Assembly: GCA_934408725.1 (NCBI GenBank)
Contig: CAKRVB010000004.1
Span: 58,536-122,535 of the forward strand
Source of the DNA: an uncultured Marvinbryantia sp.
Lineage (GTDB): Bacteria; Bacillota; Clostridia; Lachnospirales; Lachnospiraceae
Direction of reading: 5' to 3'
Length of the DNA: 64,000 bases
Below are positions 59,332 to 64,000 of the stretch, piece after piece. The notes below the pieces were generated by a model, which saw only the letters and a list, made by a program, of their open reading frames with translations, made no database searches and was not told where the DNA came from. Numbering within the stretch: position 1 is the first letter of the stretch; each line of letters starts with the position of its first letter. Made by a program: the position numbers and the translations under genes.

Positions 59332-60501
59332 ATGATATTCAAATGTCAATCCGGATATACGCTCCGGCAAATCGAAAATGATTTTTATCTGCTTCCCTAT
59401 GGGCAGCAGATTGCCGATCAGAAAAAGGGGCTTCTCCTAAATGAAACCAGTGTTTTTCTGTGGAGGAATCTGCAGGAACGAGGCAATGCAACCTCTGAGC
59501 AGCTTGCCGCTGCACTGACCAGCTATTACCAGATTCCAGATGCATCCTTTTCTTCTGTTGTGACAGATGTGAAAGACTGGATCCATCAGCTGTGCCAGCT
59601 GGGAATGCTCACTGCATCCCTGCATTCTGTCCCGGAAGACGCTTCCTGCTGTCTTTCCATTGCCGGACTGATCCTGCATCTGTATGATCCATCTGATCTT
59701 GTGAGTGCCTCGTTTGATGCTTTTCGCACAGACTCTTTTGCACAGCTTCCGGATCAGCGCATAGATCTTCTGACCGCACCGCCGGAAAGCCGTTCTTATG
59801 AACAGGTTCTGCTGCAAAATAGAGAAATGACTATTTTTCAGAATTCTGACCGTTATGTGATACTTTTTCCTACTATGCCGGATATTTACGAAGCACATAT
59901 GGCTCTGGATGGCAGTTATGTACGTATCTTCTGCCAGGCTGTGCATACCGGCGAAGCATCCGATGACCTGTTTCACGCCATCCGGCTGTTCTTTCTGTAC
60001 CTTGCCCAGAGAAAAGGCATATTTGCCCTTCATTCAGCCTCCATTCTGTACCGTGATAAAGCCTGGCTGTTCTCCGGTCACTCCGGCATGGGCAAGTCCA
60101 CACATACAGCCCTGTGGCACGAACTGTTTCAGACTCCATATCTGAATGGAGATCTGAATCTGATCGGCAGCCAGAACGGAAGCTTATGTGTCTATGGCAT
60201 CCCATGGTGCGGAACTTCCGGTATCTACACTACCAGACAGTATCCACTGGGCGGTATTATACTTCTCGGGCGACACCCTGATCAGGATGTCATAGACGAA
60301 CTGTCCACGCAGGAAAAAATACTGCGTGTCATGCAGCGTATGATCTCACCTGCCTGGACTGCAGAACTGTTGGATCAGAACCTGTCTTTTGCATCCAAAA
60401 CAGCGGATAAGGTTCCTGTATTTCACCTGTCCTGTACCATGCGTCCTTCTGCTGCTCAGACTGCCAGAGAAGCCATTGACCGTCTGGAGGATCTGTCATG
60501 A
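59332..60501 (+). CDS. PqqD-like RRE domain fused to HPr-kinase-like domain
   Basis: A 389-residue cytosolic protein with two parts. Residues 1-95 look like the PqqD/RRE fold that binds leader peptides (YTLRQIENDFYLLPYGQQIADQKKGLLLNETSVFLWRNLQ, IHQLCQLGML). Residues 100-389 resemble HPr-kinase-like enzymes found in RiPP clusters, with Walker A SGHSGMGKST at 248-257 and a following LNGDLNL. The ATG at 59332 is preferred, 12 nt after AAAGG. The gene ends in an ATGA overlap with the ABC exporter. By analogy with paeninodin-type kinases it could phosphorylate a leader-bearing peptide; this is inference. Confidence 0.82.
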   Translation: MIFKCQSGYTLRQIENDFYLLPYGQQIADQKKGLLLNETSVFLWRNLQERGNATSEQLAAALTSYYQIPDASFSSVVTDVKDWIHQLCQLGMLTASLHSVPEDASCCLSIAGLILHLYDPSDLVSASFDAFRTDSFAQLPDQRIDLLTAPPESRSYEQVLLQNREMTIFQNSDRYVILFPTMPDIYEAHMALDGSYVRIFCQAVHTGEASDDLFHAIRLFFLYLAQRKGIFALHSASILYRDKAWLFSGHSGMGKSTHTALWHELFQTPYLNGDLNLIGSQNGSLCVYGIPWCGTSGIYTTRQYPLGGIILLGRHPDQDVIDELSTQEKILRVMQRMISPAWTAELLDQNLSFASKTADKVPVFHLSCTMRPSAAQTAREAIDRLEDLS

Positions 60502-62267
60502 AAAAGAAACTTCTGCTGATTCAAAAATACCTGAAACAGGGCACTCTGAAGAAAATGTGGGCTCAGACATTGTGGATCTATCAGTATGGCCGCCGCTACT
60601 GGAAAGCTATGATCCTGTATACCCTGCTTGGACTCATGGGCACCGGTGTCTCTCTGATCTCCAGCCTGATCTCCAAAGATCTGGTGGATATCATTACCGG
60701 TCACCAGACCGGGCAGCTTCTTGGCACCTTTGCCGCCATGATCGGTTTTTCCATTGCAAACATTCTGGTTTCCCAGGCTTCCGGATATGCTTCCACTTTT
60801 ATCAGCCTGAAGGTGGATACAGAGATTAAAAATGAAATTTTTGCGAAAATGCTGGTGACGGACTGGGAATCTCTGACAGATTACCATACCGGTGATCTGG
60901 TTACCCGGTGGAGCTCGGATGCATCCAATATATCCAGCGGTATTCTGAACTGGATTCCGAACCTGATCATCTATAGCTTCCGTTTTATCAGTGCACTGGC
61001 AATCGTATTGTATTATGACCCTACCTTTGCCCTGTTTGCACTCCTTGGCATGCCTTTCAGTGCACTCCTTTCCCGTCCTCTCCTGCGCAGAATGACAAAA
61101 AACAATGAACGCAGCGCTGCCATGAATGCCAGGCTGTACGGATTTAACCAGGAAGCATTTTCCAATATCCAGACCATTAAGGCTTTTGACCTGATCCATT
61201 TCTATACATCCAAACTGAAAAGCCTTCAGGATGAATACATCCATATGCGTCTGGATTTTCAGAAAATGTCCATGCTGACCTCTGTTCTGATGTCCATTAT
61301 CAGCTTCATTGTATCCTATAGTTGTTACGGATGGGGGATCTACCGGGTATGGAGCAATGCCATCAGTTACGGAACCATGACCATGTTTCTGTCTCTCTCC
61401 GGCACACTGACCGGTGCGGTAAATTCTCTGGTCAGCCTGGTTCCATCTGCTATTTCCCTGACTATTTCAGCAGGGCGTCTGATGGATATCGTGGAAATGC
61501 CTCAGGAAGATTACAGCCAGGACGCTGCTGTGTGTCACTTTGAAAAACAGTATCGTTCTGAGGGAATTGGCCTGAATATGCAGAATCTGAGTTATGCCTA
61601 CCATAATGGCACGTCGGTTTTTGCCGATGCTTCCATGGAAGCTTATCCCCACGAAATCGTTGCACTGGTCGGTCCATCCGGTGAAGGGAAGACCACCATG
61701 CTGCGTCTGATTCTTTCTCTTTTAACGCCACAGGCCGGATCATTCCACGTCTGTGCCGGGGCTCAGCATGAGCACTATATAGAAATGTCCCCTTCCACCA
61801 GGAAATTGTTCTCCTATGTGCCACAGGGCAATACCATGTTTTCCGGAACGATTGCTGATAATATGCGAAATGTAAAACCGGATGCCACCGATGAAGAAAT
61901 AATCGAAGCCATGAAGCTTGCCTGTGCATGGGACTTCGTGGAAAAACTTCCGGACGGCATCTACAGCGAGATCAAGGAACGGGGCGGCGGCTTCTCAGAA
62001 GGACAGGCACAACGTCTCTCCATCGCCCGGGCACTTCTCCGTAAATCCCCGATCCTGCTGCTGGACGAAGCTACCTCTGCCCTGGATGTGGCAACGGAAC
62101 GAAAAGTCCTGCGCAATATCATGCAGGACACCTATCCTCGGACCTGTATCGTGACCACCCACAGGCCAACGGTTCTGAATATCTGCACCAGAGTCTATGC
62201 AATACGGGATAAAAAATGCGATGTGCTGAATGAAGAAGAGATTCAAAAAATGATGAAAGAATTTTAA
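60498..62267 (+). CDS. ABC exporter (fused membrane and ATPase domains), no C39 peptidase
   Basis: A 589-residue exporter. Residues 30-330 hold six membrane helices with LLGLMGTGVSLISSLISKDLVD at the first. The ATPase half has Walker A GPSGEGKTT (392-400), Q-loop FSYVPQGNTMFSGTI, a non-standard signature FSEGQAQRLSIARA and Walker B ILLLDEATSALD, with the H-loop in VTTHRP. It lacks the N-terminal cysteine peptidase of GG-leader exporters, so processing would need a separate enzyme, such as the peptidase at 63813. It starts inside the stop of the PqqD-HprK gene, so the two are coupled. Confidence 0.88.
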   Translation: MKKKLLLIQKYLKQGTLKKMWAQTLWIYQYGRRYWKAMILYTLLGLMGTGVSLISSLISKDLVDIITGHQTGQLLGTFAAMIGFSIANILVSQASGYASTFISLKVDTEIKNEIFAKMLVTDWESLTDYHTGDLVTRWSSDASNISSGILNWIPNLIIYSFRFISALAIVLYYDPTFALFALLGMPFSALLSRPLLRRMTKNNERSAAMNARLYGFNQEAFSNIQTIKAFDLIHFYTSKLKSLQDEYIHMRLDFQKMSMLTSVLMSIISFIVSYSCYGWGIYRVWSNAISYGTMTMFLSLSGTLTGAVNSLVSLVPSAISLTISAGRLMDIVEMPQEDYSQDAAVCHFEKQYRSEGIGLNMQNLSYAYHNGTSVFADASMEAYPHEIVALVGPSGEGKTTMLRLILSLLTPQAGSFHVCAGAQHEHYIEMSPSTRKLFSYVPQGNTMFSGTIADNMRNVKPDATDEEIIEAMKLACAWDFVEKLPDGIYSEIKERGGGFSEGQAQRLSIARALLRKSPILLLDEATSALDVATERKVLRNIMQDTYPRTCIVTTHRPTVLNICTRVYAIRDKKCDVLNEEEIQKMMKEF

Positions 62268-62304
62268 AAAATGGTGGCAGACCATGAAGAATGATCTGCC
62301 GCCA
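62266..62304. terminator. Terminator between exporter and precursor genes
   Basis: GTGGCAGA-like arms form a GC-rich hairpin (62273-62304); on the minus strand it is followed by TTTTTT, so it mainly ends the precursor transcript. Confidence 0.65.
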
Positions 62305-62323
62305 CTTACTTTCTCTCTTTGAT

Positions 62324-62737
62324 TTAAGCTGTATATCCTGAATCGGTTATTGATACCAGTGTTGCTTTTAAGCTAGATGCTTCTCCTGATACAGGCTGAA
62401 CAACCACATTAAACATTCCCTGATCTGCCCCACTGTTATTCATGGATGAATTTCTGACAAATGTCAATGTATTTGTACCATCGCCACTCTGTAAGAAATT
62501 CTGTGCACTTCCATCCACAACCTTTACCGGTGCATTTAATCTAACTACAACGATCTGTGCAGTGTTGGAATGATCTCTTGTCTCATGTGTGTAGTATACA
62601 GCGAAACGATATTTATTACCCATACCACCCTCATAGCTTTCATCAGCAATACGTCCTACAAGACATCCGCTGGCTGCGTAAATACCTTCTGCTAATCCAT
62701 TGTCCACTGTTACTACTGGTTTTGCATATTCTCTCAT
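62324..62737 (-). CDS. Leader-bearing small protein 1 (KPVVTVD...YAASG)
   Basis: A 137-residue protein with the shared leader (MREYAKPVVTVDNGLAEG, then IYAASG), followed by a body of about 113 residues rich in V, T, N and G with alternating hydrophobic strands (YRFAVYYTHETRD, TAQIVVVRLNAPVKVVDG, TNTLTFVRN, GMFNVVVQPV), so probably a beta-sandwich. The leader has no hydrophobic core and is not a Sec signal. A cysteine follows YAASG directly (YAASGC). GGGGGAAG precedes the ATG. Exported by a leader-dependent route is inferred. Confidence 0.8.
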   Translation of the reverse strand: MREYAKPVVTVDNGLAEGIYAASGCLVGRIADESYEGGMGNKYRFAVYYTHETRDHSNTAQIVVVRLNAPVKVVDGSAQNFLQSGDGTNTLTFVRNSSMNNSGADQGMFNVVVQPVSGEASSLKATLVSITDSGYTA

Positions 62738-62784
62738 GCTTCTTCCCCCATTCTTCTCTTATAAGAAATAAAACACTATTGTTT

Positions 62785-63150
62785 TTATGTATTCGATGCT
62801 GAGCAGCCTGTGATCTTGAGCTGTTTAATTACACCATTTGCCTGTACTGTGATCTCAGCTGTTTCCGGTGCTGAATACCAAGATAAAGTCAGCTGATTTC
62901 CTGAGTAACTACCTGATGCGTTACCACCCCATCCACCGCTGATATTATTATTAAACCTCACTGTAACTGTCAGCTGTGAACGGTTCGCATTCGTCAGATC
63001 CAGAGTAAAATTAGCCTGACCGCCGCCTCCCCAGTCACTCACAACACTCAGATCACTTGCTGACACGCCATTTTCTGCTCCGCTGGCTGCATAAACGCCT
63101 TCTGCCTGTCCCGCATCTACGGTAATTACCGGCTTTTCATACATCTTCAT
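62785..63150 (-). CDS. Leader-bearing small protein 2 (KPVITVD...YAASG)
   Basis: A 121-residue protein sharing the leader (MKMYEKPVITVDAGQAEG, then VYAASG). The body is Gly/Ser/Asn-rich and beta-like (NFTLDLTNANRSQLTVTVRFNN, GGWGGNASGSYSGNQLTLSW), resembling carbohydrate-binding modules in composition, and ends in LKITGCSASNT. AAGGAG lies 8 nt before the ATG at 63150. It is 19 nt from its upstream neighbour. Confidence 0.8.
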   Translation of the reverse strand: MKMYEKPVITVDAGQAEGVYAASGAENGVSASDLSVVSDWGGGGQANFTLDLTNANRSQLTVTVRFNNNISGGWGGNASGSYSGNQLTLSWYSAPETAEITVQANGVIKQLKITGCSASNT

Positions 63151-63169
63151 TCTTGCAACTCCTTACCAC

Positions 63170-63553
63170 TTATTTAACAGAATAACTATGTCCCGTTATC
63201 TCTAAATTATCAATACTGGTTCCATGATTCAGATGAATACCGATGGTCAATGGATTGGAAGCTGTACTAACAAATGTCAGTGTTGCTGTATTGCCTGACC
63301 ATGTCGTTTGTACAGAAGCATCATTTGTCTCGATTTCATCTACTGTATCATTAAAACTAATGTACAGGGTAATGGTTCCGTTGATATCGGACCAGTCTGC
63401 AACTGCAAGTCCTTTTCCGCCGTTGGTGCCCCATCTGTCCCATACACCATAATAGGTTACATTCAAAGTTCCCTGTGCTGCTCCGCTGGCTGCATAAATC
63501 CCCTCTGCCAGTCCCGCATCCACAGTAACTACCGGTTTTCTATATTCTCTCAT
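63170..63553 (-). CDS. Leader-bearing small protein 3 (KPVVTVD...YAASG)
   Basis: A 127-residue protein with the same leader (MREYRKPVVTVDAGLAEG, then IYAASG). The body has TITLYISFNDTVDEIET, TWSGNTATLTFV and IGIHLNHGTSIDNLEITG, again a beta-rich fold. The ATG at 63553 is supported by leader alignment to its paralogues; a longer reading from 63592 adds unrelated residues. It is the promoter-proximal gene of the three, with a consensus promoter at 63619-63647. Confidence 0.8.
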   Translation of the reverse strand: MREYRKPVVTVDAGLAEGIYAASGAAQGTLNVTYYGVWDRWGTNGGKGLAVADWSDINGTITLYISFNDTVDEIETNDASVQTTWSGNTATLTFVSTASNPLTIGIHLNHGTSIDNLEITGHSYSVK

Positions 63554-63618
63554 AATTACTTTTATCTCCTCATGTCTGTCTTCTTCAGGCAAATCTTTTC
63601 ATCTTTTTTTCTGTTTTT

Positions 63619-63647
63619 AATATAGCTATCCAACATCCAAAAGTCAA
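63619..63647 (-). promoter_or_regulatory. Promoter of the three leader-bearing genes
   Basis: Minus strand TTGACT (63647-63642), 17-bp spacer, TATATT (63624-63619). Confidence 0.8.
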
Positions 63648-63687
63648 GTAATTCAGCGAAAAATGTCCTTCTGAATTTCGTTTTTTC

Positions 63688-63716
63688 TTGTTCTTTTTCT
63701 GTCACAATGTTATAAT
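63688..63716 (+). promoter_or_regulatory. Promoter of the S26-like peptidase gene
   Basis: TTGTTC (63688-63693), 17-bp spacer, TATAAT (63711-63716), about 97 nt before the ATG. Confidence 0.7.
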
Positions 63717-63812
63717 ACCTCTGTTTTGAATTCAGCAGAATTTACAGGCATTTTCTATATCATTTTAACGCTGCATATCATTCTGTTTATCTTTTACAGG
63801 GAGTTTTATATT

Positions 63813-64000
63813 ATGAAAAAACAGCCTCATTTGCTTCATACGAATCAGACGGATTCTTCTGACCGTCAGATTGATCTGGAACAACTTCTGAAAGACGGTA
63901 ATATCATCCGTATCCATCCCCAGGGCTACAGTATGTATCCTATGTTTCTGCCGGGACGGGATGAGGCTCTGATTGAATCTGTCTGTGCAGATTCCTGTCG
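63813..64000 (+). CDS. S26/S24-like serine peptidase, truncated by window edge
   Basis: Only 62 codons are present. GGGAG lies before the ATG at 63813. The sequence IRIHPQGYSMYPMFLPGRDEALIE contains the signal-peptidase-type SMYP motif with the catalytic Ser at residue 40. No membrane segment precedes it, unlike SipS-type enzymes, so it would be cytosolic. It could cleave the YAASG leaders; this is inferred from proximity. The lysine partner lies beyond the window. Confidence 0.8.
   Translation, partial: MKKQPHLLHTNQTDSSDRQIDLEQLLKDGNIIRIHPQGYSMYPMFLPGRDEALIESVCADSC

Follow-up and report, generated by a model that had tools for sequence, protein, structure and literature searches.

A likely new branch of linear polyphosphorylated peptide-like systems in Lachnospiraceae, with tagged small proteins and a predicted glycan-binding cargo

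Contig CAKRVB010000004.1 of an uncultured Marvinbryantia sp. (Lachnospiraceae; assembly GCA_934408725.1) was analysed over a stretch of 64,000 nucleotides, termed the window below. Its last part, from 59,332 to 64,000, holds the genes that had been named in an initial annotation of this DNA: a fusion of a PqqD-like recognition element of the type found in ribosomally synthesized and post-translationally modified peptides (RiPP recognition element, RRE) with an HprK-like kinase, an ATP-binding cassette (ABC) exporter, three small genes with a common leader, and the beginning of an S26-like peptidase gene (Table 1). The annotation considered the system undescribed. However, its architecture is that of the linear polyphosphorylated peptides (LPPs), as given in the report by Popov et al. 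(Nat Commun 2026, PMC13381572), and the cluster is best described as LPP-like rather than LPP itself, and likely as a new LPP-type branch. The genes are coupled, in that the start of the exporter gene and the stop of the fusion share 4 bases, and the gene orientation is divergent; divergent promoters, which had also been proposed, are not established, the promoter-like sites in the region (11, as against 8.5 +/- 3.2 in shuffles) being at chance level. Terminator-like sites numbered 7, as against 4.2 +/- 2.1 in shuffles.

Table 1. Features of the cluster in the window and, with the prefix L188, on a contig from the genome of a close relative
Feature	Position	Strand	Basis or remark
RRE (PqqD-type winged helix)-HprK/PEPCK-fold kinase fusion, 389 aa	59332..60501	+	Pfam, fold match
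RRE half of the fusion, predicted leader-binding domain	59332..59613	+	
Kinase half of the fusion: P-loop GHSGMGKST, NGD motif, HSAS motif	59614..60498	+	residues identical in 60/60
MsbA-like ABC exporter, no C39 peptidase domain	60498..62267	+	Pfam; near the fusion in 28/31 fusion loci
Terminator-like hairpin downstream of the substrate genes	62276..62300	-	10-pair stem and T run
Tagged substrate 1, 137 aa, body cluster 0; leader 62666-62737	62324..62737	-	
Tagged substrate 2, 121 aa, CBM2-like body; leader 63079-63150	62785..63150	-	
Tagged substrate 3, 127 aa, body cluster 3; leader 63482-63553	63170..63553	-	similar gene in L188
Best promoter-like site upstream of the substrate genes, TTGACT-17-TATATT	63619..63647	-	site number at chance level
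S26/SipW-type leader peptidase, truncated where the window ends; includes the catalytic Ser (QGYSMYP)	63813..64000	+	
Discrete PqqD protein after S26	L188:1326-1598		
NTP_transf_5 protein after the discrete PqqD	L188:1734-3026		

The three small proteins of the window begin with closely similar tags of 24 residues. An alignment of 49 tagged proteins gave a consensus close to M-K-x-Y-E-K-P-V-V-x-x-x-x-E-x-A-E-G-V-Y-A-A-S-G, in which E, [YF], S, and G each occur in 49/49, P in 48, and Y in 47; YxxP is thus present in 47/49, the leader of locus L004 being the sole one without P and one of the two without Y. The bodies behind these tags comprise 53-138 residues and fall into 11 clusters (blastp E 1e-3), and the leader identity is 0.54 within body clusters versus 0.53 between them, which shows the tag to be separate from its cargo. 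One leader is therefore carried by unrelated bodies beside the RRE, the exporter, and the S26 peptidase, which supports the common leader named in the initial annotation. A leader profile of 24 positions, seeded with a motif, gave matches at E <=0.001, down to 2e-15, in 24 of the 397 genomes searched from the family Lachnospiraceae; the sharing of the leader is far above chance. The leader has no hydrophobic stretch (the top 11-residue hydropathy mean among the 49 tags is 1.30), in keeping with the earlier remark that no Sec signal is visible.

The assignment of the fusion to an RRE is based on its match to Pfam PqqD (29.9 bits; cut-off 23.4) and on a search of its profile against PDB sequences, where four RREs, including LppB (9x8z) and 9x90, were the only matches. 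The label of HprK for the second half has good support from the fold, which matches PEPCK/HprK, and weak support from the sequence, since the NCBIfam HprK_rel_B match has an E of 0.006, far under its cut-off, and sequence profiles alone are marginal. Six residues (H234, G252, G254, K255, D274, and R336), which stand for the P-loop, His, Asp, and Arg, are identical in 60/60 fusions, and this kinase half is predicted to be a modifying enzyme already within the window.

Fusion loci were drawn from a scan of genome contigs, from the 397 family genomes, and from fetched neighbourhoods. There are 31 such loci (the window and 30 from relatives), and the fusion of L001, the best match in the contig scan, is 76% identical; L065, L068, L070, L071, L073, and L074 were left out as split or kinase-only. 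An exporter lies near the fusion in 28/31, which is the fair rate to quote, since the set of 28 loci used below was chosen for having both genes; moreover, L048 and L049 are near-identical, so that the locus counts are not fully independent. In 25/28, tagged genes are found in the locus, and in the remaining three (L053, L060, and L001) they are on another contig of the same genome. The S26 gene is present in 22/28 and, for five of the other six (L001 included), elsewhere in the genome. L061, L067, and L069 have the fusion without an exporter in the fetched stretch, although G138, the genome of L061, has an exporter, S26, and tags at a distance of some 36 kb from the fusion. On the contig concerned, L111:4834-8224 encodes S26, the exporter, and a pair of tagged proteins; the 18 kb fetched around them contain no fusion, and the lone fusion is at ~52 kb. 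Among the loci that had been left out, L065, L068, and L074 have the exporter and S26, and no tag was found in them; the RRE and the kinase are split in L065 and L068.

The tag and the fusion also occur together at the level of genomes. At E <=1e-7, the tag was found in 23/397 family genomes, 22 of them among the 25 fusion genomes (read from the search table and the neighbourhoods, with G051 and G224 counted as split), and thus in 1/372 without a fusion. The association has a Fisher p of 7e-32, in a sample that is partly circular with the tag alignment: 20/28 tag sequences of the alignment used came from these 397 genomes, and the test on the family is to that extent not independent. In an order sample of 354 genomes, 9/9 tag genomes were among the 11 fusion genomes (G1037, as kinase-only, is not counted among these), and the tag occurred in 0/343 others; five of these fusion genomes were new, and three of the five were tagged. 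The initial annotation had proposed a search for the motif near these genes; a tag that is mostly without the fusion was not seen (fusion in 22/23 and 9/9 tag genomes). The exception in the family is G149, a genome of 1.6 Mb with three tagged proteins (L105:8763-9176, L106:8474-8956, and L107:2301-2660) and with no fusion or S26 at the thresholds used; the L105 protein has a weak ubiquitin-family match. In a class sample of 391 genomes, fusions at E <=1e-30 were found only in G001 and G026, and 24 others had kinase-only relatives (L121-L144). Within ~1.5 kb of the latter, 9 have a discrete PqqD and 10 have an S26 protein, and short leader-like open reading frames (ORFs), often starting like MKxYxKP, are present in about half with weak scores (E 0.03-4.7). 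LPP-like systems are perhaps more widespread, then, with precursors that are shorter in these loci.

The exporter was said to lack a peptidase domain, and Pfam indeed finds only ABC_membrane, from residue 38, and ABC_tran; in NCBIfam it scores best against HlyB- and MsbA-type exporters, under the cut-offs of these families. The S26 gene of the window is cut off after the catalytic Ser, and a complete counterpart is present in a close relative (L188:719-1207). In an alignment of 15 sequences, the Ser of SMYP is invariant, and HR and GDN are nearly so. The homologue of L003 matches TIGR02228 with an E of 3e-8 (33.6 bits, below the 51.85 cut-off). No 19-residue segment exceeds a hydropathy of 1.42 in the 23 homologues scored other than the window fragment, which supports the description of this peptidase as soluble in the relatives, from which alone it can be judged. 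The L003 protein also has a weak match (E 7e-4, score 20 versus a cut-off of 63) to TIGR02754, the nickel superoxide dismutase maturation protease, a small S26-type enzyme that cuts a leader from a folded enzyme; that protease is not known to have an RRE, kinase, or exporter as a partner.

A further maturation enzyme had been suspected to the right of the window. L188, a contig from the genome of L001, starts inside the tagged genes and runs beyond the counterpart of the window end, in the order substrate, S26, discrete PqqD, NTP_transf_5, glycosyltransferase, and flippase-like protein (Pfam gave no match for the last, whose name rests on resemblance). A nucleoside triphosphate (NTP) transferase is therefore found beside S26 in the close relative, whereas none is encoded in the visible part of the window. 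NTP_transf_5 is present in 17/28 fetched loci (one of which is a weak match at a contig end), as well as in two more genomes (L188 and L189). In L002, a single protein (L002:13538-15772) joins Stealth_CR1/CR2 with NTP_transf_5. Stealth enzymes transfer sugar-phosphate in capsule synthesis, and this fusion hints at an NTP transferase that acts with a sugar-phosphate transferase. Stealth-like proteins were present in 8/48 loci searched; seven of these loci have the cassette, and the eighth has a tagged gene on its own. More generally, 14 neighbour groups recur in at least 3 of the 28 loci: in addition to the core genes, the tags, and the NTP transferase/Stealth proteins, they include the flippase, DUF4832/4874 proteins, three glycosyltransferase groups, an epimerase, a short unassigned group, and ORFs antisense to S26 (as assigned from coordinates).

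What the tags carry is best seen in substrate 2. In the structure model of this protein, leader residues 7-25 have a predicted local distance difference test score (pLDDT) below 50, and the body, at ~90, has eight strands, so that the earlier prediction of beta-rich bodies holds for the one body modelled. Its predicted fold is the beta-sandwich of the carbohydrate-binding module family CBM2, and the 16 best Foldseek matches are cellulose-, chitin-, or xylan-binding modules or enzymes carrying one. The profile match of the body to real CBM2 domains scored 37.5, versus 16.3 for the best of 60 column shuffles and 18.8 on reversal. CBM2 modules bind their ligand via three surface Trp; in the body, W40, W74, and W91 are invariant in 54 aligned sequences (53 of 186 homologues and the window), and two of them align exactly with the CBM2 Trp, while the third is two columns off. 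The window protein has no Pfam CBM_2 match at E up to 1, that is, the Pfam cut-off is not reached, and sequence-only PDB searches found no CBM; the second substrate of L003 is above the Pfam CBM2 (PF00553) cut-off (27.3 versus 24). The likeness to PF00553 is thus one of predicted fold and of profile; the difference is that the window body is free-standing and tagged, whereas CBM2 is part of a Sec-secreted glycosidase.

A CBM2 fold for every body was considered and rejected, as only clusters 4 and 7 match; cluster 0, which holds substrate 1, has at most a distant link to cluster 4 (probability 54). Clusters 1 and 2 are Cys-rich. The former (L048, L049, L050, L063, and others) has ten members, which carry motifs of the GCxGCxA..CG- and DNGKRKPSWE-type, and the two members scanned had no Pfam match above the cut-off.

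The account of LPP systems in PMC13381572 describes a gene set of an SpI peptidase, an RRE, an HprK kinase, an NTP transferase, and an MsbA-like exporter, with one to three precursors of 35-200 aa that have a conserved N-terminus from Y-x-x-P and variable C-termini. There, the RRE binds the Y-x-x-P leader, the HprK-like kinase adds up to four phosphates to one Ser near the cut site, and the peptidase, an archaeal/SipW-type S26 with Ser/His/Asp, makes an RRE-dependent cut after F-E-T, even with green fluorescent protein (GFP) or thioredoxin attached; substitutions just past the cut site left cleavage unimpaired. The cluster studied here shares an RRE, the SipW-type S26 (as seen in the L003 homologue), the HprK-like kinase, the NTP transferase (in relatives), the MsbA-like exporter, the small precursors with a conserved Y-x-x-P N-terminus and variable C-termini, and the polysaccharide neighbourhood. 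It differs in that the RRE, discrete in LPP systems, is fused to the kinase in the window (with a further discrete PqqD in L188), in that the leader ends in AEGVYAASG instead of HQxIxFETxxS, in the predicted CBM2-like domain among the cargo, and in the Lachnospiraceae origin of its relatives. The full LPP leader motif (YxxPxVLxHQxIxFETxxS; PMC13381572) was found in 0/49 tags, and Px9Fx[T/A] likewise in 0/49. It is because the RRE of the window is fused rather than discrete and the FETxxS leader end was found in none of the tags that the cluster is called LPP-like and not LPP.

Paeninodin-like lasso peptides, which have an HprK-like kinase, an NTP transferase, and a discrete B1 RRE (as related in PMC13381572), resemble the cluster in the RRE (9x90 is one of the four PDB matches), the kinase, the NTP transferase, and the [Y/W]xxP leader. 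Here, however, the motif has Y rather than W (47/49), and the bodies are of 53-138 residues; no match to a lasso macrolactam cyclase or B2 leader peptidase was found among the members scanned from the recurrent neighbour groups or among the window and L188 proteins that were scanned. As for novelty, variety of cargo alone is not new, since variable C-termini and precursors of up to 200 aa are already described for LPPs (PMC13381572). As far as literature searches show, the new features are a folded, predicted glycan-binding cargo, the fused RRE-kinase, and the way in which the tag ends. Searches of the open-licence PMC literature found no paper that deals with such a branch in Lachnospiraceae or with CBMs as cargo, and the main text of PMC13381572 makes no mention of Lachnospir* or Clostridi*.

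These comparisons make it probable that the cluster works in an LPP-like manner: the tag would be bound by the RRE, phosphorylated by the kinase on the invariant Ser, and cut off by S26, and the exporter would then secrete small domains in folded form, among them at least one predicted binder of cellulose- or chitin-like glycans. For this cluster, we infer phosphorylation, cleavage, and export. Fold and conserved residues suggest that the RRE half would bind the Y-x-x-P part of the leader. By analogy with LppK, the kinase half would phosphorylate the Ser of YAASG, present in 49/49; Ser-Gly is the predicted site because it is invariant even though cleavage in the LPP system did not need core residues. 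The tag end, [YF]-x-[AGS], resembles the F-x-[T/A] of LPPs, with an aromatic P3 and a small P1, and for this reason the S26 cut is predicted most likely to fall at [YF]-x-[AGS] | S-G, which would place the Ser at or near the new N-terminus; an alternative would be V-Y-A | A-S-G. The bodies had been supposed to start after YAASG, but this motif probably spans the cut site. The cargo would then be carried out by the MsbA-like exporter, as suggested by its usual presence beside the fusion, and the nearby NTP transferase and polysaccharide genes may alter the phosphate further.

A simpler explanation is a plain leader-guided secretion, in which RRE, peptidase, and exporter form the path, the kinase half is a regulatory or degenerate nucleotide-binding domain, and the cargo is unmodified. 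Export needs no other maturase, and there is nothing unusual about the folded domain seen in the model of the body; yet P-loop, His, Asp, and Arg would hardly be expected to be identical in 60/60 fusions, nor Ser-Gly to close the tag in 49/49. Since substitutions after the cut are harmless in the LPP system (PMC13381572), the invariance of Ser-Gly calls for a reason other than cleavage, and this explanation is unlikely. Another possibility is that of a canonical RiPP natural product, an antimicrobial or a signal, the bodies being long precursors trimmed to short modified peptides. The RRE, leader, exporter, and NTP transferase are all RiPP-like, the Cys-rich clusters 1 and 2 could be crosslinked peptides, and a transglutaminase-domain protein is encoded near the L046 cassette. 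However, the window cargo is predicted to be a complete domain with CBM2 relatives, and no cyclase, dehydratase, or radical enzyme was found in the scanned members of the 14 recurrent groups (the scan of the 143 rarer groups covered single members only), which makes a trimmed natural product very improbable. The L046 protein (L046:12604-14196) has a transglutaminase-like core with a Pfam score of 36.4 bits, and an ORF adjoining S26 (L111:3150-4748) has, by eye, a similar start. Finally, the tag could have a cytosolic role or be a storage mark, with the exporter serving another substrate; some tagged genes are distant from any cassette, and several are far from any exporter. With an exporter near the fusion in 28/31 loci and one body resembling extracellular glycan-binding modules, this last explanation can be given hardly any weight.

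The proposed secretion of phosphorylated, tag-cleaved domains by an LPP-like system could be extended to a bolder, rather doubtful scheme. Lachnospiraceae would secrete whole folded domains independently of Sec via a portable tag placed on unrelated genes across the genome and read by the RRE-kinase fusion. At the cut end, the NTP transferase and capsule-type Stealth enzymes would join the phosphoserine to surface polysaccharide via a phosphodiester, in what would be a new protein-glycan anchor. The phosphodiester link to a surface glycan is suggested by the predicted phosphoserine at the cut end beside Stealth enzymes.

The final products and the biological role of LPPs are described as unknown in PMC13381572. 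The folded, predicted glycan-binding domain in the window is the first concrete hint found of what an LPP-type system may carry, and this branch comes with a clear tag, an RRE and a kinase that are naturally fused, and several classes of cargo. The residue phosphorylated, the cut site, the export of folded cargo by a peptidase-free ABC exporter, and the frequent neighbourhood of polysaccharide genes can thereby be tested directly. Should the tag prove portable, it would also provide a tool for Sec-independent secretion.

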